A DNA stretch of 64,000 nt, taken from Candidatus Hydrogenedentota bacterium (GTDB lineage Bacteria > Hydrogenedentota > Hydrogenedentia > Hydrogenedentales > JAGMZX01). The stretch spans positions 141,262 to 205,261 of the forward strand of contig JAKQEQ010000193.1 in assembly GCA_029556545.1 (NCBI GenBank). The letters are read 5' to 3'. Positions 31,749 through 57,760 of the stretch are shown piece by piece. A model generated the notes under the pieces. That model made no database searches. It was not told the origin of the DNA and saw nothing but the letters and a program-made list of their open reading frames with translations. A program made the position numbers and the translations under genes. Within the stretch, counting starts at the first letter, position 1. Every line of letters begins with the position of its first letter.

Positions 31749-31755
31749 CGCACGA

Positions 31756-33485: not shown

Positions 33486-33515
33486 TTGCAGAATACAAAT
33501 GCCCTGATGTATACT
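33486..33515 (+). promoter_or_regulatory. Bacterial sigma70-like promoter
   Basis: TTGCAG (33486-33491) and TATACT (33510-33515) are spaced 18 bp and lead to the SD AGGAGG of the gene at 33560. This contrasts with the TATA-type promoters further left. Confidence 0.5.
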
Positions 33516-33559
33516 GTAGAACACAGGTGCATGTTACGAAATACGAAAGGAGGAGGACC

Positions 33560-34824: not shown

Positions 34825-34850
34825 CGGGGGAGATTGAGATCAATGAAAGC

Positions 34851-35447: not shown

Positions 35448-35478
35448 CACGGCCTCGCTAAGAACCGGCCTCATTGCC

Positions 35479-36084: not shown

Positions 36085-36279
36085 ACCGCTTCATGAGGTG
36101 ATTGAGTAAGGGTTTGGGACTGGCCCCAACCGAACGTTGTGTGACCACTCTGCGGTGAAGGTTTTGGCTTCGTGTCAGAGTCGTAGTGGTCATCTCGCAC
36201 CGCCTTTGAAGCTCTTCGAGGGCCATGCTCTAGCGGAAAGTAGCCACCAAGCACCGAGATTCAATAACAGAATTGCCCC

Positions 36280-36543
36280 ATGAGCTTGAATTGGCGTGCA
36301 CCATTCCAGTTCGCAATCCAAACGGTGATGGCCCGCATCGCCTTCCGGCGAGAGCACGACGGTCTATGGGTAGGGGGATCACCTGCGGTCGGCTTCGCCG
36401 GCCTTCTGACCGTAGCGTTGCTGAAGTGGTCGCGGACAGAGGGGCGTACCATCGTGGAATTGGGTCCCTGGGCGGCGTTCGTGGTGGTTGAAGCCATTCT
36501 CATCGTGGGTTGGGTAGCCTTCAGAAAGAGCACGAAGTCATAA
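36280..36543 (+). CDS. Small membrane protein, family copy 3 (87 aa)
   Basis: The protein MSLNWRAPFQFAIQTVMARI has AFRREHDGLWVGGSPAVGF and LGPWAAFVVVEAILIVGWVA and ends AFRKSTKS. It is the close paralog of 33560-33859, with a shorter first helix. There is no clear SD. A duplicated block of one membrane protein plus NGG-family genes (33560-35447 and 35479-36543) is suggested by the alternating order. Confidence 0.65.
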   Translation: MSLNWRAPFQFAIQTVMARIAFRREHDGLWVGGSPAVGFAGLLTVALLKWSRTEGRTIVELGPWAAFVVVEAILIVGWVAFRKSTKS

Positions 36544-36871
36544 GTCGTAGAGGTCGGTAGCCGTGACCGTCTCCTCATGGTTTCCTGTAGACATCCCAGC
36601 AGTTGATTGGGCTACATCATCTTCACGGCCGTAAGGTTCGTCTCACCAGCTCCATCGCGCAGTCTCACCTATTCGAATCCCTGACTGCCAACCGGGACAT
36701 GGCATGAAGCCAGGTGCTCGTGCTAAAGTAGATGAAGCGACTTCTGAGTGGTTGTATGGGCTTGTCAGACAGGCCTTTACGCAATTGAGTTGCGCAGGTT
36801 CTGCCGTGCCCATCGAGTAACGACGTTGTACTTGGCGCGCGGCCTCTCGGTTAGCATGGGAAAGTGTCAAC
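36544..36871. other. Gap without a supported gene
   Basis: The stretch includes TTCGAATCCC near 36674, reminiscent of a tRNA T-loop, but no tRNA can be folded around it. No promoter is recognised. A remnant of an integrated tRNA-type site is possible but unproven. Confidence 0.45.
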
Positions 36872-38092
36872 TTGGCGAGTGACGAGAGACAGACTTCGGG
36901 TTGCGGGAAGAACAGGACCCGAGAAAGGGAGATACGACCCTACTCAGGTCGGACGTTGGCCGAACTCTGCCAACTGATAGCAGATTCCAACTTTCATGCC
37001 TTGGACGAGCTCATGACACATCGTAGTCCGTTCGAGACTGCCAACGGAAAACGTATCGGGTTTGTGGCTTTCTGGGAGGTGCTTCGGAATCACAAACTCG
37101 AGCATCAAGGGTACTCTAACACTGTACCCGTACTAGAGCGTGCTCTTGACCTGCTGATGGACCGCTTCACCCACAGGCCGAAAGAGAAACAGGACCTTAA
37201 GAAGGGTCAGAAGCGCAATCCACCAAAAGAGGAGGTACCGAATGCGCAATCTCTTTCCTCGGACAAGGACAAGGACAGCGAGTCCAAACGTATAGACTGT
37301 CGAAACTACTATCGTGAATACGTTGAAGAAGTGACGTCTAGCTTTAGGAAGAAACCGCCTGCAAACGAAACAGAACGCGAATTGCGTGAAGCGGAGTTAA
37401 TGCGGCATTTCGTTCGTCGGCAACTTAGATACTGCCTGAAAGAAGCGCGACGAGAAGCCAATCCTCTCTCAAGCCGTTACAGATGGAAAACGGACGAGTG
37501 GGACATTACCGTGTCCTTTCCGACGGCTTTCGCCGGCGACGCTAGGCGTAAGTGGCTTCAAGAACACGTTGGGCGCCCGGACATGTCAAAACCCTGGGAG
37601 AAGGAACGCATTCAGGCGCTGATCGACGAGGAATTTGGGCGTCCTAACCTTGTTCCAATGACCCCGTCATCGGAGAAGCGCGCTGCAAAGAAACAGTCTT
37701 CACCATCGGCCAGCATCGAGAAGACTGAACTAAAGGGCATGCGCCGGTTCGTTGCAGACGAAAAAGCAGCACGGATCAAAGACCAGCCGCCGAAAATACG
37801 TGAGTTAGGCAAGAGAAAGCTGCGCAGGTTAGTCCTCGCCGTGCTTGAGAATTGGGAGTCTGAGGAGAAGTCCGACGCCGATTTGGCCCTTGAGTTTGGC
37901 CTGAGCACAGCCACCTATAGCCGATTCGCAGGTAAGAAGAGGAGAGGGAAGAAGGCGATTCTGGTCGTCAACATTGCCCGCATCATGAAGGCGAATCCCG
38001 TTTTCCTGGAAGCGGCGCGCCACGCGGGTTTTCTCAGACGGATAGCCAAAGCTGCGGAAGATGGCAGCGAAGGAGGTTCCCATGGCACATGA
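36872..38092 (+). CDS. Unrecognised 406-aa basic protein with a helix-turn-helix-like C-terminus
   Basis: TTG 36872 opens the frame; the true start could be downstream, since the SD is weak. Residues 28-105 are helical (GRTLAELCQLIADSNFHALD, VLERALDLLMDRF). The middle, about 110-300, is very rich in Lys, Glu and Arg. The C-terminal segment SDADLALEFGLSTATYSRFA resembles a helix-turn-helix, followed by a basic KKRRGKKA stretch. It overlaps the next start by 11 nt. It may be a DNA-binding or accessory replication protein. I find no known family. Confidence 0.6.
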   Translation: MASDERQTSGCGKNRTREREIRPYSGRTLAELCQLIADSNFHALDELMTHRSPFETANGKRIGFVAFWEVLRNHKLEHQGYSNTVPVLERALDLLMDRFTHRPKEKQDLKKGQKRNPPKEEVPNAQSLSSDKDKDSESKRIDCRNYYREYVEEVTSSFRKKPPANETERELREAELMRHFVRRQLRYCLKEARREANPLSSRYRWKTDEWDITVSFPTAFAGDARRKWLQEHVGRPDMSKPWEKERIQALIDEEFGRPNLVPMTPSSEKRAAKKQSSPSASIEKTELKGMRRFVADEKAARIKDQPPKIRELGKRKLRRLVLAVLENWESEEKSDADLALEFGLSTATYSRFAGKKRRGKKAILVVNIARIMKANPVFLEAARHAGFLRRIAKAAEDGSEGGSHGT

Positions 38093-38744
38093 GATGTACT
38101 TCATCCCTATCCTCCTCGATGCGTTTGACGCGCCAGACGTCCGGCAAGCCCTAGATCTTGCGTTCGATGAAATCCAGAGGCTGGGCTGCCAGCCTGGGTA
38201 TGAGTCAGGATTTAATCACTTCCAGGAGTTCTTGGAACTCGTGGCGCAGGTTCAAGGGGTTGAAGCACCTGAAGATCTGGAAGCCGCTGCTCTAGAGGCG
38301 CTAGTGGCTGAATTGGAGCAGCCCGCCCAGCGCGGAACCTTGGCTGAGCTTCTTGAAGCATATCCGGAAATGCGTCGACGCTACGAACGACTTGCGGATG
38401 CACTGGATCAGGACTCCGAGTCGCAATCGCTCGAACTAGTTGTGCAGCATGGAGAGGATGTCCTGGGTTCGTTCGACGTGCTGCGCGGGGGCGTCTTGGG
38501 AAGGTTTGGCGGAGTCCATCCAGGATATTATCGGATATCTCTTTCTTCGGGCCGAGTCTTATGGGACGGGGAGATTGCGGAATCAGACGTTATTATCGCG
38601 GGAAGGCCATTAGAGCTGGCGGCAGACACGGGGGAACCGGCGGCGGAAGCTTCACGGGATATTTCCCTGATGAATGGCGAGATCATGATGTGTGTCTATC
38701 CGGGCATTGAAAGCGGGACTGTCGTAATCGAGCGAATGAGGTGA
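38082..38744 (+). CDS. Unrecognised 220-aa acidic protein
   Basis: ATG 38082 follows GAAGGAGGTTCC, so the upstream in-frame ATG at 38061 is not preferred. The first 110 residues are helical and acidic (FDAPDVRQALDLAFDEIQRL, LEAAALEALVAELEQ). The last 90 are strand-rich (GRFGGVHPGYYRISLSSGRV, LWDGEIAESDVIIAG). It lies 4 nt before the Lon-like fusion gene, so the two are probably made together. No function is assigned. Confidence 0.65.
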   Translation: MAHEMYFIPILLDAFDAPDVRQALDLAFDEIQRLGCQPGYESGFNHFQEFLELVAQVQGVEAPEDLEAAALEALVAELEQPAQRGTLAELLEAYPEMRRRYERLADALDQDSESQSLELVVQHGEDVLGSFDVLRGGVLGRFGGVHPGYYRISLSSGRVLWDGEIAESDVIIAGRPLELAADTGEPAAEASRDISLMNGEIMMCVYPGIESGTVVIERMR

Positions 38745-38748
38745 GACC

Positions 38749-40437
38749 ATGGAGACCAAGGGTGTAGTCAAAGAGATCGGACGCACCCGTATTGCGCTAG
38801 TTGACCGGCCTTCGGCGATGTCTTTCATCTGCAGTCTGAACGTCTCACCTCGGGAGGACAGCAGTCGAAAGGTTATCCGTTTCTCTGAGGAAGCCATGGC
38901 CTCTCATGACACAATCGACCATGTGGACACGGTCGTTGTTCCACTTCTCAGGGGCGTTCTGAAGCCTCTCGGCATGGCCGCGGGCAAGTGGAACGTGACG
39001 CTGGAGCCTCTCGAAGCGGCGGCTGCTCATGAATTACCTGTGTCCATGTCCGGCTACTCTGCCGATTTGCCCCTATTCCTCGCTCTTCTCTCCGCGAGCC
39101 TGCGGCTGCCGTTGCGGGGGGATGTTGTTGCTACGGGCCGATTTGCCTCCTCAATGGGTGAGGTGGGTTTGGTGAAGCATATTGCAGAGAAGCTCACTGC
39201 AGCGCAAAAACATCCACAGATTCATCAATTCGTTTGCCCAAGTTTTGGTGCGGACGGTTCTTTGGATGCCCTGTCGCCGGTCGAGCATGAAAGACTTAGC
39301 GAAGCCTTGGCCAGGGCGCGCGGTCGCTTGAGGGTGTCATTGGTTCGGGGCGTTGACAACCTTCTTAGCGAGGTCTTTGACGAAGAGGATCTATGCCTGT
39401 CCAGCTTGCACACGGGGCATTTCGGTCGGCCGACTGGCGTCACTGAAATGGAAACGCCGGCAGCCCGCGCGGCACATCACCTCGGCAACGAAAACGAGAA
39501 GCGATTCTGGCGCAGTCTCGGCCGGGCGTTTGAGGTTCAGGACCGAGAGTTGGGAGCGAGGCTATTGACCGCCTTCCTTGAATATTCCGACGCCCGTGGC
39601 GCCTATCCTTCGGGAGTCGGGGCGAGAGTGCTTCACCTGTTGCGCGCACTTCCCCCTGTCTTGCGCAAAGCAATGCGCGGGCCGCTTGTGCCCTCAAGTC
39701 TCTGCTTCAGTGTGCTCCGCCACGCTCAGGAGAACGATGCAGAAGATGCAGAACTGCTCTTGCGCGCGAACCGTGGTCAGGCGTGGCACGTCAAAGGAGA
39801 CTTGATAGACGACTCGCCTCCTCGGATGTCCGGGCCCACAGATGATGATGAGGTCTATGATCGGGTATGGGATGCCATCATTCGCCAGTTGAGTGAAGAC
39901 CATATTGCAGAGACGATCGACCTAGCCATTGACGAGGCATGCCTCTCCTTTAACCTCAGCTCTGGGGTTGTGGACTCGGAGGAGGAATTCGTCGAAATAA
40001 TCACATCCTACTATCTGCATTTACAGGCCAAAACGGGGGTGGTGTATACTCCCGAGGCCTGCGGTTTCGCTTATCGTGACGCCGTAAGACTTGTCGAGGA
40101 GGCCTTCCACAATGAAGGAGGCCTGAAAGTGGCGAAGCTCCAAGGCCGTCAAGGCACGAACGGTGGCTTGCGCACCGTGATTGGAAAGATGACCGATACA
40201 TTCAAGATGCAGGCGCATCGAGACCATTTCCTTTTGGTGCTCGGGACCGCGTTGGAAGGAAAGGACGAGCATGCAAAGGTGAAACTGGTGAAGGTCTTCC
40301 AGCGACGATTCGCGGACCTGCTTCCAAAGGATGTCGTGGAAGCAGACCCCCAGTACATTGCCGACCACTGGAGTACGATCATCAGAGCTTGCGCGCACTA
40401 TCTGGATGGGCTTAAGAGTATGATCAGGAAACTGTAG
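38749..40437 (+). CDS. Lon-protease-like domain fused to an NGG-family domain (562 aa)
   Basis: Residues 90-155 match the Lon (S16) proteolytic fold: VSMSGYSADLPLFLALLSAS, with Ser104 in the place of the GPSAG nucleophile, then DVVATGRFASSMGEVGLVKH with lysines at 143 and 148. Which lysine would complete the Ser-Lys dyad is not certain. There is no ATPase domain. A helical linker (residues 240-360) joins it to an NGG-family domain at about 370-562, with EFVEIITSYYLHLQAK, the signature RQGTNGGLRTVIGKMTDTFK and VKLVKVFQRRFADLLPKDV. The fusion gives the only enzymatic hint for that family. Confidence 0.72.
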   Translation: METKGVVKEIGRTRIALVDRPSAMSFICSLNVSPREDSSRKVIRFSEEAMASHDTIDHVDTVVVPLLRGVLKPLGMAAGKWNVTLEPLEAAAAHELPVSMSGYSADLPLFLALLSASLRLPLRGDVVATGRFASSMGEVGLVKHIAEKLTAAQKHPQIHQFVCPSFGADGSLDALSPVEHERLSEALARARGRLRVSLVRGVDNLLSEVFDEEDLCLSSLHTGHFGRPTGVTEMETPAARAAHHLGNENEKRFWRSLGRAFEVQDRELGARLLTAFLEYSDARGAYPSGVGARVLHLLRALPPVLRKAMRGPLVPSSLCFSVLRHAQENDAEDAELLLRANRGQAWHVKGDLIDDSPPRMSGPTDDDEVYDRVWDAIIRQLSEDHIAETIDLAIDEACLSFNLSSGVVDSEEEFVEIITSYYLHLQAKTGVVYTPEACGFAYRDAVRLVEEAFHNEGGLKVAKLQGRQGTNGGLRTVIGKMTDTFKMQAHRDHFLLVLGTALEGKDEHAKVKLVKVFQRRFADLLPKDVVEADPQYIADHWSTIIRACAHYLDGLKSMIRKL

Positions 40438-40456
40438 ATGAGGAGATGTTTGGGGC

Positions 40457-41035
40457 ATGAGCGCCATAGACGTACTGATAGAGGAACTGAATGAGCACGC
40501 GATTCTTCACAACGTCGCGGGAAGACATGACGATGCGCGACTGCAGTATCAGTTGTCCAAGAACACCGTTCGGGATTTTGCCGAGTTCAGCGAGATTGTT
40601 GGTTCCTACGTTCAGCATGCCTACAGCGCGTGCGTTATCCACGGGGGATGGATATCGAGTATGGATGCCGCGAGCATTGGGAAAGACCTGCTGGATAGAC
40701 ATCAGGGAGGCAGGCGTGGTGACGCCCAAAGTATCTACAGAGACTGCAAAGACGGGCTCAACGGCGGAATGCGAGTCTGCTTGGACCTCCTTTGTGAAGA
40801 ACTCAAGCGGCAGGCCGTTGATCGGTACATTCGGGATGTTTTTGACCGGCATTTGCCTAAGGACGACCCTGACTTGAGGCTGCGTATGGTAGAGGAGTTC
40901 ATTGAGCGCCATTCGGACGTGCTACCGGGCATTGACCGCGATAGACCGTGGCTGTATGTGAAGGATATTGAGACTCTTATTCGTGCTGTGGTGGGTGCAG
41001 CCGAACAGATGGCCTCTGTCTATCGAAGAATCTGA
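40457..41035 (+). CDS. NGG-family protein, copy 5 (192 aa)
   Basis: The protein MSAIDVLIEELNEHAILHNV has AGRHDDARLQYQLSKNTVRD, a FxxFSEIVGSYVQHAY stretch, the signature CKDGLNGGMRVCLDLLCEEL and VDRYIRDVFDRHLPK, then IETLIRAVVGAAEQM. It follows the Lon fusion by 19 nt with AGGAGAT upstream. Similarity to copy 3 in the CxDG[LI]xxG[ML]R region is clear. Confidence 0.75.
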   Translation: MSAIDVLIEELNEHAILHNVAGRHDDARLQYQLSKNTVRDFAEFSEIVGSYVQHAYSACVIHGGWISSMDAASIGKDLLDRHQGGRRGDAQSIYRDCKDGLNGGMRVCLDLLCEELKRQAVDRYIRDVFDRHLPKDDPDLRLRMVEEFIERHSDVLPGIDRDRPWLYVKDIETLIRAVVGAAEQMASVYRRI

Positions 41036-41191
41036 CGTGGGCTCTGCCCACAACCCAGTGGAGCGCCGCAGACCCGTCAGTTTTCACGCTTTCTAAACCC
41101 TTGCAGAAGAATCGCTTATGTCTGGCAAGTATAAAGCTTCTTGTTCTTTCTTGTTGAAGCTGGAGTCTAAGGTACTAAAGGGGATCAAGCG

Positions 41192-41755
41192 ATGATGTCC
41201 GGATTGGATTTCCTCGTTGATGACCTTACTCGCATCTACGATGAGTATTTGAGCAAGGTAGACCGTGCAGTGAATGCGTTTTCCTCTCGGTCCTTTTCCG
41301 CTCACGACTGGAGTTCATGCGAGCGACTCATGGAGAGGTTCTTCGCGGACATCAATGCGGCCGTTTTGGATCCTTCTTTTGCCGGCAATGCGTACATGGC
41401 CAGAAGCACGTTCCGCCAGGTGTTCGAGCCCAAGTATGGACCGTACCCCGAACGGCTCGTTTACGAGAGGATTATCCACGGCCATGATGGGGGCCTCAAC
41501 GGCGTGATTCAAGAGGCGGCCGCCGTCGTAGCCGATACCTTTGCCGAACGTGCCATTTCGAACCGCGTTGACCGGTACCTAGACAGACAATCCGACGGCG
41601 CTGTTCGCCTTGCAGCGTCCGATTATCTGTTTACGTTTGGTCACCTACTTCCGAAAGACGTGACAAGCAAGGGTACCGACTACTTGGTGCCAGTTTTCGG
41701 GCGGTTCCTGAAGCAGCATCCGAGGTTGGTGCGCAAGCTCCGCAACATCCGCTAA
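41192..41755 (+). CDS. NGG-family protein, copy 6, divergent (187 aa)
   Basis: The protein starts MMSGLDFLVDDLTRIYDEYL and has SSCERLMERFFADINAAVLD, the signature RIIHGHDGGLNGVIQEAAAV and NRVDRYLDRQSDGAVRLAAS, then RFLKQHPRLVRKLRNIR. The GG turn is kept, but the flanking segments differ more than in other copies. The 156 bp upstream contain AAGTATAAAGC (41127-41137), a possible TATA-type box at a poor distance. Confidence 0.65.
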   Translation: MMSGLDFLVDDLTRIYDEYLSKVDRAVNAFSSRSFSAHDWSSCERLMERFFADINAAVLDPSFAGNAYMARSTFRQVFEPKYGPYPERLVYERIIHGHDGGLNGVIQEAAAVVADTFAERAISNRVDRYLDRQSDGAVRLAASDYLFTFGHLLPKDVTSKGTDYLVPVFGRFLKQHPRLVRKLRNIR

Positions 41756-41782
41756 ACAGAAATCCCGCGGCTAGTTCCGCCG

Positions 41783-41799
41783 CCCTTCTTTTAGAAGGG
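41783..41799 (+). terminator. Short hairpin before the VirD4-like gene
   Basis: CCCTTCT (41783-41789) pairs with AGAAGGG (41793-41799) around TTT. The right arm also supplies the SD AGAAGGGAG of the gene at 41809, so folding could hide that SD. Confidence 0.5.
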
Positions 41800-41808
41800 A
41801 GCTTCCGG

Positions 41809-44274
41809 ATGCCCACAGTGCCAGTGCCGTCTCAGAATGAATCGCCGATGTTGGCGGACAAGCTCCAGCTAGTCTGTGCGCGTGAGCTGATGAAGGGATG
41901 TACCCCAACCATTCACTCTGAGCCGGTGTGCATCGAGCCGGCCCATGAGCCCATGCGCGATCCCCATGAGGTCATGCGGAAACCAGACTGGTCCATGTGC
42001 ACACCCGCGGCTGTACTGGAACCCTCGGAGTGGTCACGGTACCAAGTGTGGATACCAGTCGATTACGAATGCGATTGGCTGAGAACAGAGGCTTTTATCA
42101 AACAGCTGCAGGTGATGTCGCATCACATGGTCTATGAAATCTGCGGGGGCCACGACCGGGTTGTTGTCAGCATTCTCTGCCACGCCGACGACGCCCCCGT
42201 TCTCGATGTGGCCTTCTCGAGTCAATTTCCAGGTTGCGAGCTGTCTTCGTTGCCTGTGTCGTCGCTGATCACGATGTTTGATGAGGCCCGGGACAGCTTC
42301 GCGTTTGTTGAGACATGCATGCCTCCTCCGTACACAGAGCAACTCACGCGTCCGGCCGAATTCCAGACTCCCCCGCTGGAGGTCTTTCTACGCGCGCTAT
42401 CGGGGTTGCCTGCAGACACAGTTGGTGTGTATCAGGCCATAGTCCAGCCGTCCCATCCCGACCATCGGTGGCATCGGAATGTCGAAAAACTAATCGACAT
42501 TCAGTATCTCGCCGGGCTTTACGGTACCCAACAGATGCAATATCGGTATGCCCAACAGGCGCCCTCTGGTCAGTTGAATGCCATGGCCAACGACGTGGAG
42601 CGCAAGGCGCATCCGGATAAGCCGTTCTTTCACGTATTGGCCCGGGTGGGTGTGTGGACCAGCCACACGGAAGAGCGCATGGCACTTCTTCGAGCCCTGG
42701 CGACTTTCATGGGTTTGTTTCAACATGGCGGACAGCCGCTTCAGTTTGTGTCGTCTCAAGACTACCTTCAAGTACTCGCCCCCTCCCAGATACGCGAGAT
42801 GTTCATCTGGGGAGTAACGCATCGCCCCGGAACCTTACTCAACAGTCTGGAGTGTTGTGGCCTGTTCCATCTGCCTCCCCTTGCCTTGCTGGCGGAAAGG
42901 GACATAGAAGGGTGTGTCCTCGCCCCGGCCCCGGCGGATTCGGGAGCATACAGTGGCGGCACACTCATCGGTTACACACGGCGGCTGGGGAACCAACACG
43001 AAGTTCATGTAAGCGATGAGCTGCGCCTCGAACACACCCACATAATAGGGCGCTCTGGGAAGGGAAAATCGAAGTTGATCGCGGGCATGTGCCTTCGCGA
43101 TATTGAGCGCGGGCACGGAGTCGCGGTCATTGACCCTCATGGCGATTTGGCGAAGGACATAGCCGCGCGTTTGCCGGAGGAGGCGGTGGAGAAGTGCATA
43201 TACTTCGAGCCAGGTCACCCCACCTCAGTGCCGCTCTGGAATCCACTTCATGCCTATGGTCTTCCGGATCGGGTTGTCGACGATTTCATCCGTGCCTTTA
43301 TGAATATCACCGACGGATGGGGGCACCGAGTGGAAGGTCTGTTCAGGCAAGCCCTATATGGCCTCATCGCTTGTGGTGAGGCCACCTTGCACAACGTGGA
43401 TATTTTGCTCACACCTGACGATCCGGAGTCGAAACGCCTTCAGAAGAGGATCCTGGAAGTGGTCAGGAATCCAACGTCGCGTCACTTCTGGAAACACGAA
43501 TACAAAACCTACCGACGCGTTGACCTTGCCCCGGCGCACAACAAGTTGATGAAGCTCTTGCTCTACGACACGCCGTGCCTGATGTTCGCCCAGAAAGAGA
43601 GCCGTATAGACTGCCGGGAGATCATGGACAACAGTGGTATCCTCATTGCAGACCTTTCTTCACTAGGACCTGAGGCACAGGATGTAATCGGGTCCTTGCT
43701 GCTCTCTTCACTTTTCCACGCGGGAATATCACGCAGTAACATTGATGATGAAGGGCGCCGCGTGCCGTTTCATACCCATGTGGACGAAATGCATCGCTTC
43801 GTCAATGACGGACTTCCAAAGATGCTCGTGGAGATGCGCAAGTTCGGCTGCAGTCTGGTTCTTTCCTCGCACTACTTGGGGCAAGTTGAATCCCACAAAC
43901 GTATTGAAGCGCTGAGTGGCGTGGGGACCACGATTGCCTTCCGGGTGGGCTCTGAAAGAGTGGAGCAAGTCACACGTTTCTTGGGGGGCGAGGTTGAGAA
44001 AGACGAACTGTTGAAGCTCGAGCGGCAATATGCGGTGGCACGCCTGGAATCCGAGGTTTTTCGAATCAAGACGCCTGACCTGCCGTCTCCGAAAGATACG
44101 ACCACGGCGGCCCGTGTGAAGCGGCATTCACAAGAGCGGTACGCAATGCCGGCCGAGGAGATCTACGCCGAACTGGGAATTCCGAAACCCAAGTTTGGTG
44201 GGCAATACCGCCACACGTTCAACAAGCGTGTTTCGCAATCCGAGCACGAAGAGTACGCTTACGATGAGCTTTGA
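41809..44274 (+). CDS. VirD4/TraG-like coupling ATPase (HerA-FtsK superfamily)
   Basis: The 821-aa protein has an N-terminal region of 400 residues without clear membrane helices. Then come Walker A IIGRSGKGKSKLIAGM (residues 412-427), VAVIDPHGDLAKDIAARLP, Walker B THVDEMHRFVNDGLP, and SLVLSSHYLGQVESHKRIEA. These mark the DUF87/TraG-D type of DNA pump that delivers DNA to a transfer channel. No relaxase or channel genes are visible in the window, so transfer may depend on helper functions or use another mode. The stop overlaps the next start by 11 nt. Confidence 0.82.
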   Translation: MPTVPVPSQNESPMLADKLQLVCARELMKGCTPTIHSEPVCIEPAHEPMRDPHEVMRKPDWSMCTPAAVLEPSEWSRYQVWIPVDYECDWLRTEAFIKQLQVMSHHMVYEICGGHDRVVVSILCHADDAPVLDVAFSSQFPGCELSSLPVSSLITMFDEARDSFAFVETCMPPPYTEQLTRPAEFQTPPLEVFLRALSGLPADTVGVYQAIVQPSHPDHRWHRNVEKLIDIQYLAGLYGTQQMQYRYAQQAPSGQLNAMANDVERKAHPDKPFFHVLARVGVWTSHTEERMALLRALATFMGLFQHGGQPLQFVSSQDYLQVLAPSQIREMFIWGVTHRPGTLLNSLECCGLFHLPPLALLAERDIEGCVLAPAPADSGAYSGGTLIGYTRRLGNQHEVHVSDELRLEHTHIIGRSGKGKSKLIAGMCLRDIERGHGVAVIDPHGDLAKDIAARLPEEAVEKCIYFEPGHPTSVPLWNPLHAYGLPDRVVDDFIRAFMNITDGWGHRVEGLFRQALYGLIACGEATLHNVDILLTPDDPESKRLQKRILEVVRNPTSRHFWKHEYKTYRRVDLAPAHNKLMKLLLYDTPCLMFAQKESRIDCREIMDNSGILIADLSSLGPEAQDVIGSLLLSSLFHAGISRSNIDDEGRRVPFHTHVDEMHRFVNDGLPKMLVEMRKFGCSLVLSSHYLGQVESHKRIEALSGVGTTIAFRVGSERVEQVTRFLGGEVEKDELLKLERQYAVARLESEVFRIKTPDLPSPKDTTTAARVKRHSQERYAMPAEEIYAELGIPKPKFGGQYRHTFNKRVSQSEHEEYAYDEL

Positions 44275-44875
44275 GATCGCCGACAACCCCCGCGATTTGT
44301 TGCAGCAGATGCTGGCCGAACTGGACGAACGAGAACTGAGGCGGCAGATTGATGACCCTGTGGACGCCGCCGTCGCGGAGTATGTGGGGCAGCTAAGTAT
44401 GCCTTCCCCGCCGACACAACGAGACGTCCTGGATGCGGTATCCGGACTGCTCCGGCACGTCTACTGCAAGGGGCTGGCCTTTCGACGTGAGTTGCCGACA
44501 GGCCAAGTCCGCCGTGAAGCCGCCTTTCTCCTTGAGAACTGCTACGCTGGTACTGGTGGCCGTGGCTTTTCCGTGGCCTTGTCCGAGGCCTGCGCTGGCG
44601 GGCACGACGTTGTTGTGTCGGTCCTGATGACGTTGGGGGACGCAATGAAAGCAGTCGAGCGACGTAAGTTCTTGTGGGTTACGTTGACGGGGCGGCTGTC
44701 TTTGCTCCCCCTGGAATCGCGGTATCGGCTCGCGGAGCATGTATGGGAAGCGTGGTCACCGCACCTTAGCAAAGTGGCCGCCCTAAGCCCAAGAGAGGTC
44801 GCAGCCCGGCTCCCCGAACTCGTGCTCGAGTTCGCCGAAAGCGACAACCACATTCGCCGTCTATTCGCAAGCTAG
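44264..44875 (+). CDS. NGG-family protein, copy 7, most divergent (203 aa)
   Basis: ATG 44264 overlaps the coupling ATPase gene. The protein MSFEIADNPRDLLQQMLAEL has LRRQIDDPVDAAVAEYVGQL, GVDAV-type spacing in the next helix, the site EACAGGHDVVVSVLMTLGDA, and ESRYRLAEHVWEAWSPHLSK. Length, helix order and the GG turn fit the family, but identity is low. It may be its coupling partner because the genes are translationally linked. Confidence 0.6.
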   Translation: MSFEIADNPRDLLQQMLAELDERELRRQIDDPVDAAVAEYVGQLSMPSPPTQRDVLDAVSGLLRHVYCKGLAFRRELPTGQVRREAAFLLENCYAGTGGRGFSVALSEACAGGHDVVVSVLMTLGDAMKAVERRKFLWVTLTGRLSLLPLESRYRLAEHVWEAWSPHLSKVAALSPREVAARLPELVLEFAESDNHIRRLFAS

Positions 44876-44970
44876 GCACGCGCCATTCCCGCGTCTCGCC
44901 TTCATTTCTGAAACATGCCCTGCAATTCCGCCGCCCCTATAGCAGAAGAAGTTCAACATGGAGTAGTGCA

Positions 44971-45513
44971 ATGTTGTTTCGAAAGGACATGGAGAGAGAG
45001 AACGGTGTCTGGGTCGACCGCGGCATTGACGGACGTGTTGATGCTTTCTCCATTTGTGGGTCCTGCCGTGAAGACCTGCATGCCAATGACCCGGAAGGCC
45101 AGGATTGGCATGAAGGTCAGGAACTGTGTCCCTCATGCAGGACGGATTTCCAGGCCCATGCGCTGGCGGTCGATCTGCTCGGGCTGTCTCGCCCGTTCAA
45201 TGGCATGCTTGAAGATCGGGTCCTGACGAACGACGAAGTGGACGCGGAGCCGGCTCGGGCGGTACCGGGCGCGATCGAGTACTTCTCCCCGCCTGAGGAG
45301 AGCCTTCCCAAGCATGGTGCTGGGGACCCTCGCTTGTTTGGAGAAGGCGACGCTCTTTCCCCGGATTCAGTTGGCCCGTTGCAGGTTGGGATGGAAGACC
45401 CTTTTCGTCTCGACCCCAACTACCGGCCGTTTCCGGGCTTGGCCAATCCCTTGCTTCCGCAGCCTAATGACTACTTCTTGCCCGGTATGGAGGGCTACTT
45501 CCTGCCGGAATAG
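44971..45513 (+). CDS. Zinc-finger-bearing 180-aa protein
   Basis: The protein MLFRKDMERENGVWVDRGID has one zinc ribbon near residues 29-55 (CGSCREDLHANDPEG, LCPSCRTDFQ). Beyond residue 90 it is Pro/Gly-rich and acidic with repeated DPxFRLDPNYRPFPG-like turns. No enzymatic motif is present. It is followed 19 nt later by the primase-like gene. It may be an accessory protein of DNA processing. Confidence 0.6.
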   Translation: MLFRKDMERENGVWVDRGIDGRVDAFSICGSCREDLHANDPEGQDWHEGQELCPSCRTDFQAHALAVDLLGLSRPFNGMLEDRVLTNDEVDAEPARAVPGAIEYFSPPEESLPKHGAGDPRLFGEGDALSPDSVGPLQVGMEDPFRLDPNYRPFPGLANPLLPQPNDYFLPGMEGYFLPE

Positions 45514-45532
45514 TTGGAGCGAGCATTTCGAG

Positions 45533-46570
45533 ATGTTGGAAAGAGACCCCAGGAGTACAGCCGAGAAGACAGACCTGTTTAGGGCGGCTTTCCCAGGCCT
45601 CGACCACGTCTACGGCACCTACGATCTCGGCAGTGGCCGTTCGTGGCAGGTGAAGCAACCGGTGACCGATGAAGTCATCGTCAACCACATTATGGGGAGG
45701 AAACCCCTTGGGAGGTACCTTCTGACTGGTACACACACGCGTGCCGTTGTCGTCGACTACGACGACGATGTTCCGGACCTGCCCATAGAGTTCTTGAATC
45801 AGGCCGCACACTACGAAGTTCCGAGCTATATCGAGGTCAGCAAGGCCAAGGGCTTTCATGTTTGGCTCTTTTTCGAGGACGACGGAGTGCCCGCTGTCAA
45901 GGCCCGAGCCGTGGTGAAGCACATCCTGGATGAAGTCGAGCACAACGTCGAGGTGTTTCCGAAGCAGGACGTCATCGACCTAAGCCGCGGTGAATATGGC
46001 AATTTCATCAATTTGCCGCTCTTTGGAAGGCTTGTTCTGGAGGGACGCACTGTGTTCGTTGACCCGGCAAACGGCTTGCGCCCTGTGCCCAACCAGTGGA
46101 GACTGATGGAGGTCTTCCATCGCGTCAGTGAATCCGTTCTCGACGAGATTATCGAGATCAATGAAATCGAGGTGGATTGCCCGAGGGATTCTGCTGTCAG
46201 TCTCGTCTTGGGCACCGTCGAGCAGGGATGGGGGCTTCCGCCATGTGCGAGGCGCATGTTGGCGGAAGGCGTGACGCATGACCAGCGCGTTGCCTGTTTC
46301 CGCTTGTCCGTTCACTTCAAGCGGCAGGGGGTCCCGTTCGACATAGCTGTGGCGGCTCTTCGCGAATGGTCGAAGAAAAACCGTCCGTCGGGCGGCAAGC
46401 GGACCATCACCGCGACGGAGATAAAGGCTCAAGCAGCCAGTGCGTTCGACAAGGACTACCGCGGGTGCGCTTGCGACGACCCGGCCATTGCTCCTTTCTG
46501 TGTGCCTACGTGTCCGATCGCAATCAAGACCGCCCAAGGTCCCGCCGCCTCGAGTTGTCAAGACGGGTAG
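45533..46570 (+). CDS. Archaeo-eukaryotic primase-like protein (AEP)
   Basis: The 345-aa protein contains the catalytic acidic motif AVVVDYDDDVPDLP, the motif KAKGFHVWLFFEDDG (sxH type), and SRGEYGNFINLPLFGR, a combination seen in the AEP superfamily of TOTE-type and plasmid primases. The C-terminus has a Cys cluster CACDDPAIAPFCVPTCPI, perhaps for zinc or Fe-S. It would start DNA chains for the element. Together with Orc1/Cdc6 it points to archaeal-type replication. Start ATG 45533 has a weak upstream SD. Confidence 0.8.
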   Translation: MLERDPRSTAEKTDLFRAAFPGLDHVYGTYDLGSGRSWQVKQPVTDEVIVNHIMGRKPLGRYLLTGTHTRAVVVDYDDDVPDLPIEFLNQAAHYEVPSYIEVSKAKGFHVWLFFEDDGVPAVKARAVVKHILDEVEHNVEVFPKQDVIDLSRGEYGNFINLPLFGRLVLEGRTVFVDPANGLRPVPNQWRLMEVFHRVSESVLDEIIEINEIEVDCPRDSAVSLVLGTVEQGWGLPPCARRMLAEGVTHDQRVACFRLSVHFKRQGVPFDIAVAALREWSKKNRPSGGKRTITATEIKAQAASAFDKDYRGCACDDPAIAPFCVPTCPIAIKTAQGPAASSCQDG

Positions 46571-46682
46571 CCCGGAATCTGGATGATGGATCTGAACGTC
46601 CACTGAAATCACGTTCCTGTTTCCTCCGCTTATCGGATTGGCGGGAACAGCGCCAATTTGACTTGGAAAGGAGGTGAGAAAC

Positions 46683-47048
46683 ATGAGCGAACTGAAGATG
46701 ACTGTGGAACGGGGTGACCCCCTTCCCGTCGGGAAACACGCGGCGAAAGTCATTGACGTGGATGAGATGGAAGGGCCCCATGGTCCCATGGTCCGCTTGC
46801 GCTTCAGGGTCAATCACGAGGAGTGCGTTCACGAGGTGACCGCTCTCGCCAGTAAGAAACTGAGCCAGCGCACCAAGCTTGGTCGGTGGGCCTCGGCCAT
46901 CCTGGGTCGGGAGATCGAAGTTGGCGAGCAGATTGCCGTGTCGGATCTGCTCGACAAGCCGTGCATGGTGAAGGTAGAGCACAAGACCACCGACGACGGC
47001 TACGTCTTCGCCAATGTCGTCGACATCGAAAACGAAGTGCCGTTCTAG
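46683..47048 (+). CDS. Putative OB-fold ssDNA-binding-like protein
   Basis: The SD AAAGGAGGTGAGAAAC precedes ATG 46683. The 121-aa protein MSELKMTVERGDPLPVGKHA has RLRFRVNHEECVHEVTALAS, a RTKLGRWASAILGREIEVGE segment, and strand-rich ends (ANVVDIENEVPF). This pattern is common among small phage and plasmid proteins predicted to bind ssDNA, placed next to primases. The role is inferred from context and pattern only. Confidence 0.7.
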   Translation: MSELKMTVERGDPLPVGKHAAKVIDVDEMEGPHGPMVRLRFRVNHEECVHEVTALASKKLSQRTKLGRWASAILGREIEVGEQIAVSDLLDKPCMVKVEHKTTDDGYVFANVVDIENEVPF

Positions 47049-47127
47049 TGATAGGCCCACTTCCCACAGAACGGAAACAAGGTCCACAGGCAACAAGGCT
47101 CTTGGCCTCGGAAAGGAGTACGAAAGG

Positions 47128-47373
47128 ATGAGCCGGAGGAAGGACAGCTCGGTTGGCCGGAAGGGACTCGCCAAAGCCAACCCTACTCCCTACCTGTCGC
47201 CCAAGGACCTAGCGGAGCGGTGGCGGTGTTCGCGGCCGACGGTCACGCGGATAGCTGAGCGGGCAGGGCTCCGCCGCTTCTGCCTGGGCGAGGGCCGCAA
47301 CGGCATCGTCCGGTATCTCAGGGAGGAGGTGGAGGCCTACGAAGCCTCCCGATGCGTCGGAAGCAACCCCTAA
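47128..47373 (+). CDS. Excisionase-like helix-turn-helix protein
   Basis: ATG 47128 follows AAAGGAGTACGAAAGG. The 81-aa basic protein has YLSPKDLAERWRCSRPTVTR, a MerR/Xis-type helix-turn-helix, then IVRYLREEVEAYEAS. Small proteins of this sort beside a phage-type integrase act as excisionases or recombination directionality factors. A terminator separates it from the converging integrase. Confidence 0.75.
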   Translation: MSRRKDSSVGRKGLAKANPTPYLSPKDLAERWRCSRPTVTRIAERAGLRRFCLGEGRNGIVRYLREEVEAYEASRCVGSNP

Positions 47374-47404
47374 TCGTTGACCCGGCGAACACGCCGCCCG
47401 CGCT

Positions 47405-47439
47405 GCCCCGGTCGGACCAATGGGAGGTCCGACCGGGGC
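47405..47439. terminator. Bidirectional hairpin between excisionase-like gene and integrase
   Basis: GCCCCGGTCGGACC (47405-47418) pairs perfectly with GGTCCGACCGGGGC (47426-47439) around AATGGGA. The genes converge here. Confidence 0.8.
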
Positions 47440-47462
47440 GGCACCGTTTGGACCTATCTTGA

Positions 47463-48635
47463 TCACCCCCTGATGATTCGAAGATCGGGTTTGCCCAGGT
47501 CGTCGAACTCCACTGAGTCCGCCAATGCTTCCGGCTGAAGCGCCGCATAGTGGCGCCGGCAGATTTCCGGCGAATTGCCCATCAACGCGGAGATCTTGTA
47601 CAGGCTCTCGCCCTTCATCGCCAGCTGGCTGCCGAAGGTATGACGGTAGTCGAGGCAGGACCAAGAAAGGCACGCCTTCTTGTTGGCGTCACGAAGCACA
47701 TGGGAGAAATTGTCTCCGTCCCACCGGAGCCCCTTCGGCGTGGGGAAGAGCCATCGTCCGGGGACCACGCGGCACGCGTAGGCGTCCAGATAGGCCCGCA
47801 GCGCTCGACTGACAGGCACGGCGCGATTCCGTTTTGTCTTGGGTTCCCAGAATTCGCCATCCACCGTCTTTGCGTGCACCCGGATGACGCCGTGCACGCC
47901 AGCAGTCAAATCCAGGTCGTTGAGTTGCAGCCACAGCGCCTCTTCACGGCGAAGCCCGGCGTAGATGTAGACGGCGACCATCGTCTGAAGCACGGGATGG
48001 TCGGCAAGCGCCTCGAGTTGCTGCGCGATCTGCCTCTTCGTCAGGAACCGGATCTCGGGCGCGGACTCCCGCTGGCGCTCGACCTTGGCCGCGGGGTTCT
48101 GGCCACCGGGCATGCGTACTCCCCGCTGGGTCATGGCCCACGAGAACAGGCGGCTCAGGATCTCCCGGTAGCGGTTTCCCGTCTTCGGGGCGATGCCCTC
48201 CTCACGAATGCGCCTGGCAATGACTTCGGATATCTCGCCGACGGTGACCTGTTCGATGTATTGGGACTGAATGCGGAATCGCTCCGGTTTCCGTCTGGAC
48301 CGGCGTACGCCCTTCCGCCCTTGGCTCGCCACTCCTGTCTTCGAAAGGTCGTCGCATATTGGGCCGAAGAGATCGCTCAAGTACCACAGGTCGGACCGGA
48401 CGCTGTGCGCCGTTTTGGTCATGCGGATGTGGTCGACGTAGGCCGCCAGGATCTCGGCTGTCGGTGTCTTCGTGGGGCCCCCTACGTCTTCGCCCCGATA
48501 CAGGCGGGACTCCAGTTTCCGGAGTTTCTCCTTGGCGACCTGCAGGGAGGGTGTGTGGAGGCATTGTCGGACCTGCCTGTCGCCGTCGTAGTACTGGGCG
48601 TAGTAGGTCTTGCCGCGTTTCTTGAGACTTGCCAT
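47463..48635 (-). CDS. int: Tyrosine integrase of the tRNA-fMet-borne element
   Basis: I place the start at 48635, 7-8 nt after AAAGGAG; an upstream open stretch adds 41 unlikely residues. The 390-aa protein has an N-terminal arm domain (KKRGKTYYAQYYDGDRQVRQ), a core-binding domain and a catalytic domain with AGLRREEALWLQ, DYRHTFGSQLAMKG and NSPEICRRHYAAL, which carries the Tyr. Position 3 of the pentad is Asn where His is usual (GHS replaced by GNS). It lies 148 bp from the tRNA 3' end, the ordinary site of such integrases. This integrase is bacterial in style, with a good SD. Confidence 0.9.
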   Translation of the reverse strand: MASLKKRGKTYYAQYYDGDRQVRQCLHTPSLQVAKEKLRKLESRLYRGEDVGGPTKTPTAEILAAYVDHIRMTKTAHSVRSDLWYLSDLFGPICDDLSKTGVASQGRKGVRRSRRKPERFRIQSQYIEQVTVGEISEVIARRIREEGIAPKTGNRYREILSRLFSWAMTQRGVRMPGGQNPAAKVERQRESAPEIRFLTKRQIAQQLEALADHPVLQTMVAVYIYAGLRREEALWLQLNDLDLTAGVHGVIRVHAKTVDGEFWEPKTKRNRAVPVSRALRAYLDAYACRVVPGRWLFPTPKGLRWDGDNFSHVLRDANKKACLSWSCLDYRHTFGSQLAMKGESLYKISALMGNSPEICRRHYAALQPEALADSVEFDDLGKPDLRIIRG

Positions 48636-48782
48636 ACGGAGCTCCTTTCGTGGCCGCCTACCGTATAAGCGGCAGCCAAGTTGGGCTCGTGGCAAGTCCT
48701 CCGAATCTACTAGGGTACAATTTAGGGTACACAGCCCCAAAAAAAGAAGGACTTGCATCGCTGCAAGTCCTTTGATACCAAT

Positions 48783-48859
<77 letters not shown>

Positions 48860-51298: not shown

Positions 51299-51447
51299 AC
51301 ACGCACTCCTTCAGAAACTTCCGTGACGCGCCACTATATCGCAAGTCGCGGCCGCAACGCCGACCGGGGCTCTTGTGTTACTTGCAGGCTTCCTCTACAC
51401 TCGGCGAGAGTATCCCCGAAACGCAACCTCATTTCGGAAGCAGTGCA

Positions 51448-54339
<2,892 letters not shown>

Positions 54340-54364
54340 GACGACGCCAGAACCAGACTTCAGT

Positions 54365-54560
54365 TCTGGCCGGTCTCCTGCTTGCCACGCCGAAGCGTCC
54401 CGCGAAGGCCGGGACCGAGCCAGTCCCGCGACCGTAAGGTCTCCCACTCGCAGTAACATGCGTTCGGATTGGAGACCTTCGGTCGGCCCGGTAGCGCGGT
54501 CGGGAGACCGGCCACAACGGTGGAGACCTCCGGTCGGCCCGCTGGCGCGGTCCCGGCCTT
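54365..54560. repeat. Dispersed GC-rich repeat module, copy 1
   Basis: A block including CGCCGAAGCGTCCCGCGAAG, GGTCTCCCACTCGCAGTAAC and GGAGACCTTCGGTCGGCCCG recurs with changes at 55718-55880 and 57260-57480. The 51-bp sub-unit is present about 1.5 times here. In reverse it encodes the oligopeptide CGRSPDRATGPTEGL. Confidence 0.75.
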
Positions 54561-54827
54561 CGCTGAAGCTACGGTGGGCACGCCGGAGACCGTCCGCAAC
54601 GAACGACGGGTTCGTGCCGGGCGCGTCCGCAAAGAGATCGGGGACAGTCCCGTCTCCCACGCGAAGCGCGTGGTCGCTTCGTACAGTCCCCGGTTGTGTC
54701 ATCGTCCGGCCCCCGCCGTCCGCCGCCGACACCAACAATGCGCCGAAGGCACATAAACTCGTTCGCTCCATTATACCCGGACGTCGTCCAGGGCTCATGC
54801 GGAAATGGGTGGCTGTCTTCTATTTCA

Positions 54828-55235
54828 CTATTTCAACACATCGACATTGACTTCGCGGCATTGCTTGAGAGCGGCATCCCCCGTAAGGACAACGTCCGCC
54901 TTTTTCTCAATGGCAGTCGCCAAATGGATCGCGTCGGGTGTCCGGAATCGATACTTGGCGCGCAACTGCGTCGCCGTTTCAATGATATGCGCGTCAATAT
55001 CGGCGAGAACAAGGGGTTCCGCGGAGAAGAATGCATTATACGTGGCCAGCAACGCGGTGTCGTTGTCTCTGACAGGGCGGACCCGGCATTCAAGCACGGA
55101 GAGCCGCGAGGTCACAACGGGCGATTCCGTCCCCGGTCTGAACTTCTTCAATGCGGCGACAACCTGTCCGTGGAACGGTTCGGCGCCCTCGACGAGGTAG
55201 ACAATGCTACACGCATCTAGATAGAGCCCCGCCAT
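54828..55235 (-). CDS. VapC-like PIN-domain toxin
   Basis: The 135-aa protein has the four acidic sites of PIN nucleases: LDACSIVYLVE, SVLECRVRPV, RTPDAIHLATA and DVVLTGDAALKQC. It begins directly at the stop of the gene at 55235, so the two form a toxin-antitoxin pair. It would cleave RNA when free. All catalytic residues appear intact. Confidence 0.88.
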   Translation of the reverse strand: MAGLYLDACSIVYLVEGAEPFHGQVVAALKKFRPGTESPVVTSRLSVLECRVRPVRDNDTALLATYNAFFSAEPLVLADIDAHIIETATQLRAKYRFRTPDAIHLATAIEKKADVVLTGDAALKQCREVNVDVLK

Positions 55236-55465
55236 CAGGGCTCACCCCAGGACGCCCGCTCTTCCTTGATCTGCCGATCAATGTCTTCCTTCGTTCGCGT
55301 ACCCGCGGGTAACGCCGAAACCAAATCCAAAAACTCCTTGGAAACAGGCCGCGCAGCACCCACGTCCCGGACCGCCAACTCGATCTTTACCACGGCCCCA
55401 TCCGGCAGCGCCACCGGCTCATCCAGCACAATCGCCCCCTTCTCAACATGGCCCATGTACGTCAT
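55235..55465 (-). CDS. Antitoxin-like protein of the PIN pair
   Basis: The 76-aa protein (MGHVEKGAIVLDEPVALPDG, then VKIELAVRD) is of the AF2212/DUF104-like antitoxin type, with a C-terminal helix KEDIDRQIKEERASW that would clamp its toxin. The stop and the toxin start share a base. Related to the protein at 62702 in the first 40 residues. Confidence 0.8.
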   Translation of the reverse strand: MTYMGHVEKGAIVLDEPVALPDGAVVKIELAVRDVGAARPVSKEFLDLVSALPAGTRTKEDIDRQIKEERASWGEP

Positions 55466-55512
55466 CCTACGAACTCTCCGATTTCACGCCTTCATTATAG
55501 CACGAGCCCTTC

Positions 55513-55684
55513 CGGACGCTCCACGCCGGCCAGGTCCAGACCACGTGCGGCACGGACTTCGACTGTATCGCCGAACACGTCCTGGCCAACTGTCTCGACA
55601 AAGCTGTCGTCCCCACCAACGGCTACGCAAGCATGACGGCGGAGAACCAGGAGCAACTGAGAGCCCATGCGTTTAAGGCGCTTG
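55513..55684 (+). pseudogene. Decayed fragment of the mobile element's VWA gene
   Basis: This stretch aligns base for base, without gaps, to 27994-28165 (constant offset 27519), with shared runs such as GCCGGCCAGG, CGGCACGGACTT and CAGGAGCAACTGA. In frame it reads GQVQTTCGTDFDCIAEHVLA, against GQVQTTYGTDFDCIAEHVLA in the element. The MIDAS motif itself is missing. It lies outside the integrated element, between the antitoxin and a dispersed repeat. Confidence 0.85.
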
Positions 55685-55717
55685 TCGCAGCGGACCGTGC
55701 CGTAAGGCTCGAATTCC

Positions 55718-55880
55718 CCGGTCTGGCGGGTCTCCCGCTTGACTCGCCGAAGCGCTTCGCGAAGGCCGGGACCGAGCCAGTCCCGCGACCGGAAGGTCTC
55801 CCGCTCACAATAGCATGCGTTCGGATTGGAGACCTCCGGTCGGGCCGGTGGCGCGGTCAGGAGACCGGCCACAACAAGGT
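55718..55880. repeat. Dispersed GC-rich repeat module, copy 2
   Basis: The block contains CGCCGAAGCGCTTCGCGAAG and GGAGACCTCCGGTCGGGCCG and matches copies 1 and 3. It directly follows the VWA remnant, so repeat insertion may have broken that sequence. Confidence 0.75.
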
Positions 55881-55931
55881 CCTCGTCGACGGCCCCGCGC
55901 CACACCTCGATATCCTCGACAAGTTCCACCA

Positions 55932-56453
55932 TTACACCCATGTATCCGTACCCCGTTCGCTTCGCAGAGTGAAGCTATCAGCGAAATAGGTGTCCCTGTG
56001 TTTCACTTTCCTGCTCGCGCTTGGCCAAGCACGCTCCATTATGAGAAGGACCGACTTAACCCCTGGCGAATACACCAGGGTTACTTGGTCCTCATGTGTA
56101 GCTGCCGGATAAGCCGTAGAAGCCCGCCGATAAGTCCGTTCGAGCGGAAATGAACAGTACAGCTTCCAGCCTTCCGCGAGAGCGGTCATGTGCACTAAAT
56201 CGAAATACTCTTGCGGCCCAGCGGATGTCGAGTGAAAGCGAAAAGCATAATAGCCGGTATCGACATCATGCGTGATTCCTTCGAATCCTTCCCTTCCCTG
56301 GAGAAAAGGGTCAAGATCGGGGTAGCGCACAAGATCGCTTTCGCGCGGCGTGACGCGATCACATCCGTGTACAGACTGTAAGAATAAGAATGATATAGTT
56401 ATTAATAATAAGATATATATATATCCTTCAGTCCTATTAAGCATGAATATCAT
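55932..56453 (-). CDS. Unrecognised exported protein, 173 aa
   Basis: The N-terminus has a hydrophobic stretch YIYILLLITISFLFLQS ending at a Cys (VHGC), so it may be a lipoprotein. The rest (GYYAFRFHSTSAGPQEYFDL, LYCSFPLERTYR) looks like a small secreted fold. The coding region upstream of 56420 is unusually AT-rich (AATAATAAGATATATATATA) for this chromosome, so it may be recently acquired. Confidence 0.55.
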   Translation of the reverse strand: MIFMLNRTEGYIYILLLITISFLFLQSVHGCDRVTPRESDLVRYPDLDPFLQGREGFEGITHDVDTGYYAFRFHSTSAGPQEYFDLVHMTALAEGWKLYCSFPLERTYRRASTAYPAATHEDQVTLVYSPGVKSVLLIMERAWPSASRKVKHRDTYFADSFTLRSERGTDTWV

Positions 56454-56529
56454 TGGTCATACCCTGAAAACCACACTGCCTCCCAGGCTCTGCGGCATGC
56501 TGTCAGTCTGAGTTCCCACGTTATAGCGC

Positions 56530-57585
56530 TTAATATTCGGCTGGGAGCCCTGCTGGACGATATTTTCGACAGCGGTCCCCGCAATCCATGTCGTCGGGGC
56601 ACTCTGAGCCCCAGCTATTGGCCTCCATATCAGCTAACATGTCGTAAACAGGGTCTCCCTTCCACCATCTTCCGTAAATCTCGCGCAGCCAGCTGATCAC
56701 TGCCGCCATTCCTGCACCTGCGTCTCCGCACTTTGCTGCTTCGCAGTTGCCCTTGCAATGAAAGTACTTGTCGGCACCTATCCAATTTGCCCTCTTCATC
56801 TCACGGTAGGCCTGCCACAACTTCTGTATGGCACAACCGATCTGAGTGCTGGGGTCTCCATTTGGATTTATCAGCCAGGCACCAAGCGGGTCTGCTGCGT
56901 TGGCCGGATTCCCCCCCACATACGCATACACATTCGGCCCATCGACCATGCCGAGGGGGTCGCGGGTGAGCCAGCGGGCGGTCGGGGGGGAGTAGTAGCG
57001 GTAGGGGAAGTAGTAGAGGCCGGTTTCGAGGTCGAGCATCTTGCCGGTGAAGAGTTGGCCGGGGACGTCCGCCGGACCGGCCCCGCCGCGGAACATGCCG
57101 TAGGGCTCGTATTCGGCGACGGCCATCCACGCCTTATTGCCGGCGAAGAGGGCGCGCAGGCTGCCCAGGTGGTCCTGCGCGTAGTAGCGATACGTCCCCG
57201 TGGACGGGTTCGTGCCGGCCACGTCCGCCAGCGCGAGCATGCCCTCGAGCGGCACGTTCTGGCCGGTCTCCCGACCGAGCCAGTCCTGCGACCGCAAGGT
57301 CTCCCACTCGCAGTAAGATGCGTTCGGATTGGAGACCTCCGGTCGGGCCGGTGGCGCGGTCAGGAGACCGGCCACAACGGAGGAGACCTTCGGTCGGGCC
57401 GGTGGCGCGGTCAGGAGACCGGCCACAACGGAGGAGACCTTCGGTCGGCCCGGTGGCGCGGTCAGGAGACCGGCCACAACATGAAACGTCGTATCCACCC
57501 CGTTCTCCGTCATTTTCGTCAATGCGCCAGAGGCGCATAAACCCGTTCGCCGTATTATACACGAAAGTCGCCGTGATCGGATCAT
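56530..57585 (-). CDS. RHS repeat-associated core fragment with variable C-terminus
   Basis: The frame reads YYAQDHLGSLRALF, EYEPYGMFRGG, then MLDLETGLYYFPYRYYSPPT and DPLGMVDGPNVYAYVGGNPA, the RHS core signature. A variable C-terminus follows (YFHCKGNCEAAKCGDAG, DDMDCGDRCRKYRP), as in polymorphic toxins. The first 100 codons are the 51-bp repeats read in frame, so the real RHS gene was cut by repeat expansion. This is a remnant, not a full secreted protein. Confidence 0.75.
   Translation of the reverse strand: MIRSRRLSCIIRRTGLCASGALTKMTENGVDTTFHVVAGLLTAPPGRPKVSSVVAGLLTAPPARPKVSSVVAGLLTAPPARPEVSNPNASYCEWETLRSQDWLGRETGQNVPLEGMLALADVAGTNPSTGTYRYYAQDHLGSLRALFAGNKAWMAVAEYEPYGMFRGGAGPADVPGQLFTGKMLDLETGLYYFPYRYYSPPTARWLTRDPLGMVDGPNVYAYVGGNPANAADPLGAWLINPNGDPSTQIGCAIQKLWQAYREMKRANWIGADKYFHCKGNCEAAKCGDAGAGMAAVISWLREIYGRWWKGDPVYDMLADMEANSWGSECPDDMDCGDRCRKYRPAGLPAEY
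57331..57480. repeat. Tandem 51-bp repeat, three copies
   Basis: Units start at 57331, 57382 and 57433, each beginning GGAGACC[TC][TC]CGGTCGG and ending CCGGCCACAAC. The 51-bp period keeps the RHS frame, adding 17 residues per unit. This is copy 3 of the dispersed module at 54365 and 55718. Confidence 0.88.
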
Positions 57586-57589: not shown

Positions 57590-57760
57590 AAATCGGTGGC
57601 TGTCCCCTATTTTGCTGGAAATCGGTGGCTGTCCCCTATTTTGCTCTATTTTGCTGTCCCCTATTTTGCTATTTTGTCCCCTATTTTCCCCAGAATCTAC
57701 CTTGGGGAGAAATAGGTGGCTGTCCCCTATTTTCGCTATTTTTATTCTCCCTATTTTCTT
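57590..57760. repeat. Short T-rich tandem repeat around CTGTCCCCTATTTTG
   Basis: CTGTCCCCTATTTTGC-like units occur at about 57600, 57629, 57653 and 57731 with GGAAATCGGTGG between some. They lie between the RHS remnant and ychF. The same GACAG/CTGTC core appears in the inverted repeat in the oxidoreductase at 60859. Confidence 0.7.

Follow-up and report, generated by a model that had tools for sequence, protein, structure and literature searches.

A decayed 57-codon scrap of a VWA gene outside a tRNA-Met-integrated element of a Candidatus Hydrogenedentota bacterium, probably derived from a sister element

The chromosome of a Candidatus Hydrogenedentota bacterium carries, some distance from an element integrated at a tRNA-Met gene, a 57-codon scrap of a VWA-domain gene of that element's family (55513-55684, + strand; hereafter the fossil). 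We consider it probable, at about 0.8, that the fossil is a dead piece of a VWA gene carried by a sister of the resident element. Positions refer to the window, the stretch of 64,000 nucleotides that we analyzed (G000:C134:141262-205261, G000 being the bacterium's own genome of 6,116,581 bases), unless a contig is named.

An earlier note on this DNA had aligned the fossil without a gap to 27994-28165 (+ strand), a segment of the VWA gene in the resident element. This alignment holds: 143 of the 172 bases are identical (83.1%), on the same strand and with no indel, and the match between the chromosomal and the element part of the window scores 169 bits against at most 38.1 bits in 200 first-order Markov shuffles. 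The core reported by blastn, 55507-55660 against 27988-28141, reaches 86.4% identity (E 4.9e-42). Beyond the edges of the fossil, identity is at chance level (2-5 of 10 bases per block on the left, 0-3 of 10 on the right). The point changes and lost ends that the note described are likewise real, with 29 mismatches in 172 bases and a cut at either end, and its distance of about 6.6 kb from the element corresponds to 6,654 bases from the end of the tRNA gene at 48859. The fossil is in frame with the VWA gene and has no internal stop. Its 171 aligned coding bases differ from the resident gene at 28 sites (6, 7, and 15 at codon positions 1, 2, and 3, respectively), and by tblastn it matches residues 343-411 of the 436-residue protein, edges included. 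Within the bacterium's own genome, the fossil and the resident gene are the only two matches, both by DNA (E <=0.001) and by protein (E <=0.01).

The resident element has the features of a tRNA-integrated element, with a tyrosine integrase gene (47463-48758, - strand; Pfam Phage_integrase, 9e-13) adjoining tRNA-Met (CAT) (48783-48859, - strand; ARAGORN) and a repeat of the 3' part of the tRNA at its far end. We found this repeat by self-comparison of C134:81001-225261, less 261 bases. The right att copy lies at 48738-48828 (C134:189999-190089) and the left copy outside the window at G000:C134:104961-105050; the two are 90% identical over 91 columns, share a 57-base match, and consist of the tRNA 3' part and the terminator. 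Because the direct repeats lie that far apart, we estimate the resident element at ∼85 kb. The att copies differ by paired T-stem changes in their tRNA part, so the left copy seems, judging from this pattern, to derive from another tRNA-Met allele. The tRNA-Met of G040, the sole congener compared, has a T-stem identical to that of the right copy; it lies near a contig end, and within C134:81001-225261 its 8.8-kb contig has matches to nothing but the tRNA region and the att copies. At G000:C139:52182-52223 (L084, L097), we also observed the terminator stretch of tRNA-Met, reaching to the CCA end, after which the sequence is unrelated; this is a possible scar of another attachment site. In G052, a genome from another family than the host, a tRNA-Met 3' half at G052:C14:39077-39169 (L100) stops near the anticodon, like the left att copy of the resident, and is probably an att scar.

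The core of the element comprises an Orc1/Cdc6-type initiator, an ArdC-N protein, a TOTE-type primase, the intact VWA gene (26938-28248, + strand; 436 amino acids), and a MoxR-type AAA ATPase gene (28828-30360, + strand; Pfam AAA_5/AAA_3). The initiator (21060-22325, - strand; TIGR02928, 251.9 bits against a cut-off of 181.3) is of a type unexpected in a bacterium and has relatives in G052 (64%) and G046 (70%). A TraD/DUF87-like coupling ATPase was seen weakly, below cut-offs. G052 carries the same core, which there occupies a single contig together with a related integrase (54.5%) at a tRNA-Met, and parts of the core are also present in G046 (two places), G049, L006, L008, L010, and L016. Titles and abstract openings in the literature yielded no description of this element family. 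Pairing of MoxR and VWA genes is a general theme, and both here and in several relatives the first large gene to follow the VWA gene is of the MoxR type. As in the MoxR-VWA pairs of Pfam bpMoxR and DUF2201, the resident gene encodes a VWA-like domain and has a MoxR-type AAA gene a short way downstream; the resident pair differs, however, in that both scores are under the Pfam cut-offs. The 559-codon frame holding the VWA gene scores 22.1 bits against DUF2201 (PF09967), below the gathering cut-off of 26.4 for membership, and the neighbor scores 23.1 against bpMoxR, for which the cut-off is 27. Neither gene has a match in NCBIfam or PADLOC.

VWA matches at E 1e-10 were found in 17 of 68 genomes of the phylum. 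Full-length copies, at 50-100%, are present in eight genomes including the bacterium's own, at nine loci; two further genomes (G065 and G067) have VWA pieces only, and seven have distant VWA genes. At eight of ten foreign loci examined (L005, L006, L008, L009, L010, L016, and two in G046), element-type VWA genes adjoin other element genes; the remaining two, L007 and L017, lie on stretches of just 3.4 and 3.2 kb. Named relatives of the VWA protein come from Candidatus Hydrogenedentes/Hydrogenedentota at five of six loci, the sixth being labelled Eisenbacteria, and we found none in plasmids, phages, or viral contigs. The fossil shares gapless homology in the VWA domain with the genes of Hydrogenedentota tRNA-Met elements (G052, G046, G049, G043, and G051), its nearest relatives by DNA being the resident gene and the G052 copy. 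Whereas these genes are full length and keep the invariant residues, the fossil has 57 codons and is broken.

Over its 57 codons, the fossil and the resident gene are 84% identical, as are the resident and G052 genes, and the fossil and the G052 copy are 74% identical; the other eight homologues reach 52-66% over this segment. Third-position divergence in the stretch is 26% between fossil and resident and 30% between resident and G052, compared with 33% for host genes (YchF and GMD) within the genus and 38-51% between families. A parsimony count across the 171 bases assigned 21 unique changes to the fossil, 20 to G052, and 4 to the resident; at 3 sites all three differ. The fossil, the resident gene, and the G052 copy thus appear to form a three-way split: p-AU was 0.745 for the best topology, which joins fossil and resident, 0.393 for resident and G052, and 0.184 for fossil and G052, and no topology was rejected. 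Because its divergence from the resident gene is close to that between the resident and G052 genes, both in identity and at third positions, the fossil is an old, separate lineage of the VWA gene, dating back about as far as the split from the G052 copy, and its parent would be either a sister element or the product of a very old split. The earlier note had proposed that this element or a sister was in the lineage before; these identities (84/84/74%) narrow the proposal to a sister or an old split of this kind. From a scrap of just one gene, we infer a whole sister element as the source. We did not detect the fossil by DNA or protein in the congener G040, a single genome in which the two flanks, at the epimerase and YchF genes, lie on different contigs.

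Alternatively, the fossil could be an old partial copy of the resident's own VWA gene, made within the genome or during an earlier stay and decayed since. As alternative topologies are not rejected, a copy from the resident's own ancestor is possible; joining fossil and resident gives the best of the three topologies, and the two lie on one contig, 27 kb apart. We nevertheless regard this origin as unlikely. The third-position divergence between fossil and resident is near that between resident and G052 and not far below that of host genes in the same genus, and the unique changes are unequal, 21 against 4. Furthermore, the host genes between the fossil and the tRNA argue against an attachment-site remnant of the same insertion.

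The position of the fossil also speaks against its being what a former insertion at this tRNA left behind. When an element enters a tRNA gene at the 3' end, its remains stay on the 3' side. The fossil lies on the 5' side, past the host genes for GMD and an epimerase, so we rejected this origin; in addition, an att scar is absent, as the sequence between 48,861 and 64,000 repeats no more than 10 consecutive bases of the tRNA region. No other element gene was detected beside the fossil. The host side is common to G040 (81% identity over 51442-54327 and 84% over the YchF gene).

The fossil instead sits in an intergenic patch. To its left are a PIN-domain protein gene (54828-55235, - strand; Pfam PIN, 1.3e-13), the probable toxin of a toxin-antitoxin pair, and a 75-codon frame (55241-55465, - strand), the probable antitoxin, whose translation has no Pfam match; this toxin-antitoxin stretch has no match in G040. 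Directly to the right is a 31-base scrap (55686-55716, + strand), 84% identical to 57084-57114 in the frame 56530-57585, which we read as RHS-like. This frame (- strand) has a strong match to Pfam 'Serum amyloid A' (2.3e-25), an odd label for a bacterial protein, and nearby, at 57600-57760, are short repeated stretches around a CTGTCCCCTATTTT-like motif. A copy of a dispersed repeat follows the scrap at 55722-55875 (+ strand), and self-comparison located others at 54365-54518 and 57273-57480; its unit is 51 bases, with 44 matches in the genome over many contigs.

The fossil might be in use now, contributing to a chimeric 162-codon frame (55501-55986) or to the upstream region of the antitoxin. 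The frame is open across the fossil into the dispersed repeat, and the antitoxin frame begins ∼40 bases from the fossil edge. However, the first ATG, GTG, or TTG of the 162-codon frame is at 55633, inside the fossil; a promoter scan of 54300-56500 gave one site only, which lies elsewhere (55063-55035), against 0.9 expected by chance in the scan; and key residues of the fossil are broken. We therefore judge present use to be very improbable, and most likely the fossil has no present function.

By its sequence, we take the fossil to be a pseudogene, and the description of it as a dead VWA gene piece is upheld by both truncation and decay. Just 57 of 436 codons remain, a loss of parts expected of a pseudogene. 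Nine functional homologues, a set without the most divergent one (L017), share 22 invariant residues, at 4 of which the fossil carries radical changes (L>H, Y>C, L>P, and D>N); against all ten homologues, it breaks 2 of 18 (Y>C and D>N). In leave-one-out controls, eight functional rows broke none, G052 broke one (L>I), and L017 broke four, all conservatively. We also carried out the count of synonymous and nonsynonymous changes that the note had proposed: 11 of 21 changes on the fossil branch are nonsynonymous (52%), between the functional G052 branch (9 of 20, 45%) and the neutral expectation of 74% (P = 0.029 for so low a nonsynonymous count, a weak test with only 21 changes). This mix fits a gene that would have been mostly under selection and died later. 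The loss of function may be recent, as the frame is still open, with no stop or indel in 57 codons.

An origin from an unrelated chromosomal VWA family of equal similarity, which the note had raised as the finding that would speak against it, is extremely improbable and was rejected, because although distant VWA genes are present in seven other genomes of the phylum, eight loci of this kind share 27-46% of residues with the element gene, match the fossil weakly or not at all, and in all eight cases lack any other element gene in the 2.4-4.2 kb read. The fossil's identity as an element-type gene therefore stands.

The note had also suggested looking for further fragments in the genome. Such a search, run in part, with window 18800-38600 and 38601-48780 as queries, revealed no other clear element-gene fossil. 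The matches that were not fossils included a C41 stretch matching an ABC-transporter gene (18418-19272), window 11023-11258 matching 19949-20184, and, on C139 as well as at the left att copy, stretches of terminator sequence. On another contig of the genome (G000:C137, L079), relatives of two element genes (60% and 43%) keep their order at 3829-4932, perhaps as a second, distant element; no VWA or MoxR gene was found within the 10 kb read. Elsewhere in the phylum, G067 has a VWA piece with a frameshift (residues 356-436) and G065 has two pieces (residues 376-400 and 124-184), with no intact copy detected in either genome. A G065 MoxR piece (89%) was dropped as a fossil candidate since it runs off the contig end and is possibly an intact gene. 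The scraps of the window, G065, and G067 all overlap at residues 376-400, ∼25 codons around DGYASM. The lowest third-position divergence of the VWA gene lies at or near these residues in three of six gene pairs, so pieces from there are easier to detect, and we consider the overlap mostly a detection effect. A bias toward capturing or retaining this stretch as DNA, for instance because it serves within the element as a site of recombination or transfer, seems a distinctly poor bet.

On the preferred reading, a sister element's VWA gene would have evolved under selection inside its own element, and a piece of it would then have entered this chromosome and been trimmed there to 57 codons. The intergenic patch that holds it also gathered a toxin-antitoxin pair, a second gene scrap, and dispersed repeats. 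Illegitimate recombination, and not an insertion at this tRNA, presumably brought the piece in; after capture it would have lost residues indispensable to the protein.

Truncated, decaying pieces of integrative-element genes outside intact elements are a known general kind. The fossil is like them in all these respects, and the phenomenon itself is ordinary: where mobile elements infect repeatedly, fragments of their genes are expected to remain in chromosomes. An example from the literature on gene remnants of integrative elements in bacterial chromosomes is PMC2718499. In contrast to such remnants, here a single 172-base piece has an intact relative of its source on the same contig, so the two can be compared.

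The note had taken the fossil as support for real residence of the element over contamination. The fossil shows past capture of element-family DNA here and says nothing of how long the resident has stayed; as a sign of past contact with the family, it argues mildly against contamination as the element's origin, but its position on the 5' side and the lack of another element gene beside it weaken the argument. Better evidence for residence comes from the direct repeat of the tRNA, with its copies 85 kb apart, from the G052 element at its tRNA-Met, and from the related cores elsewhere in the phylum. Overall, the fossil suggests that a close cousin of the resident element once left DNA in this bacterium, and as such it would independently testify to more than one visit of the tRNA-Met element family to this lineage.
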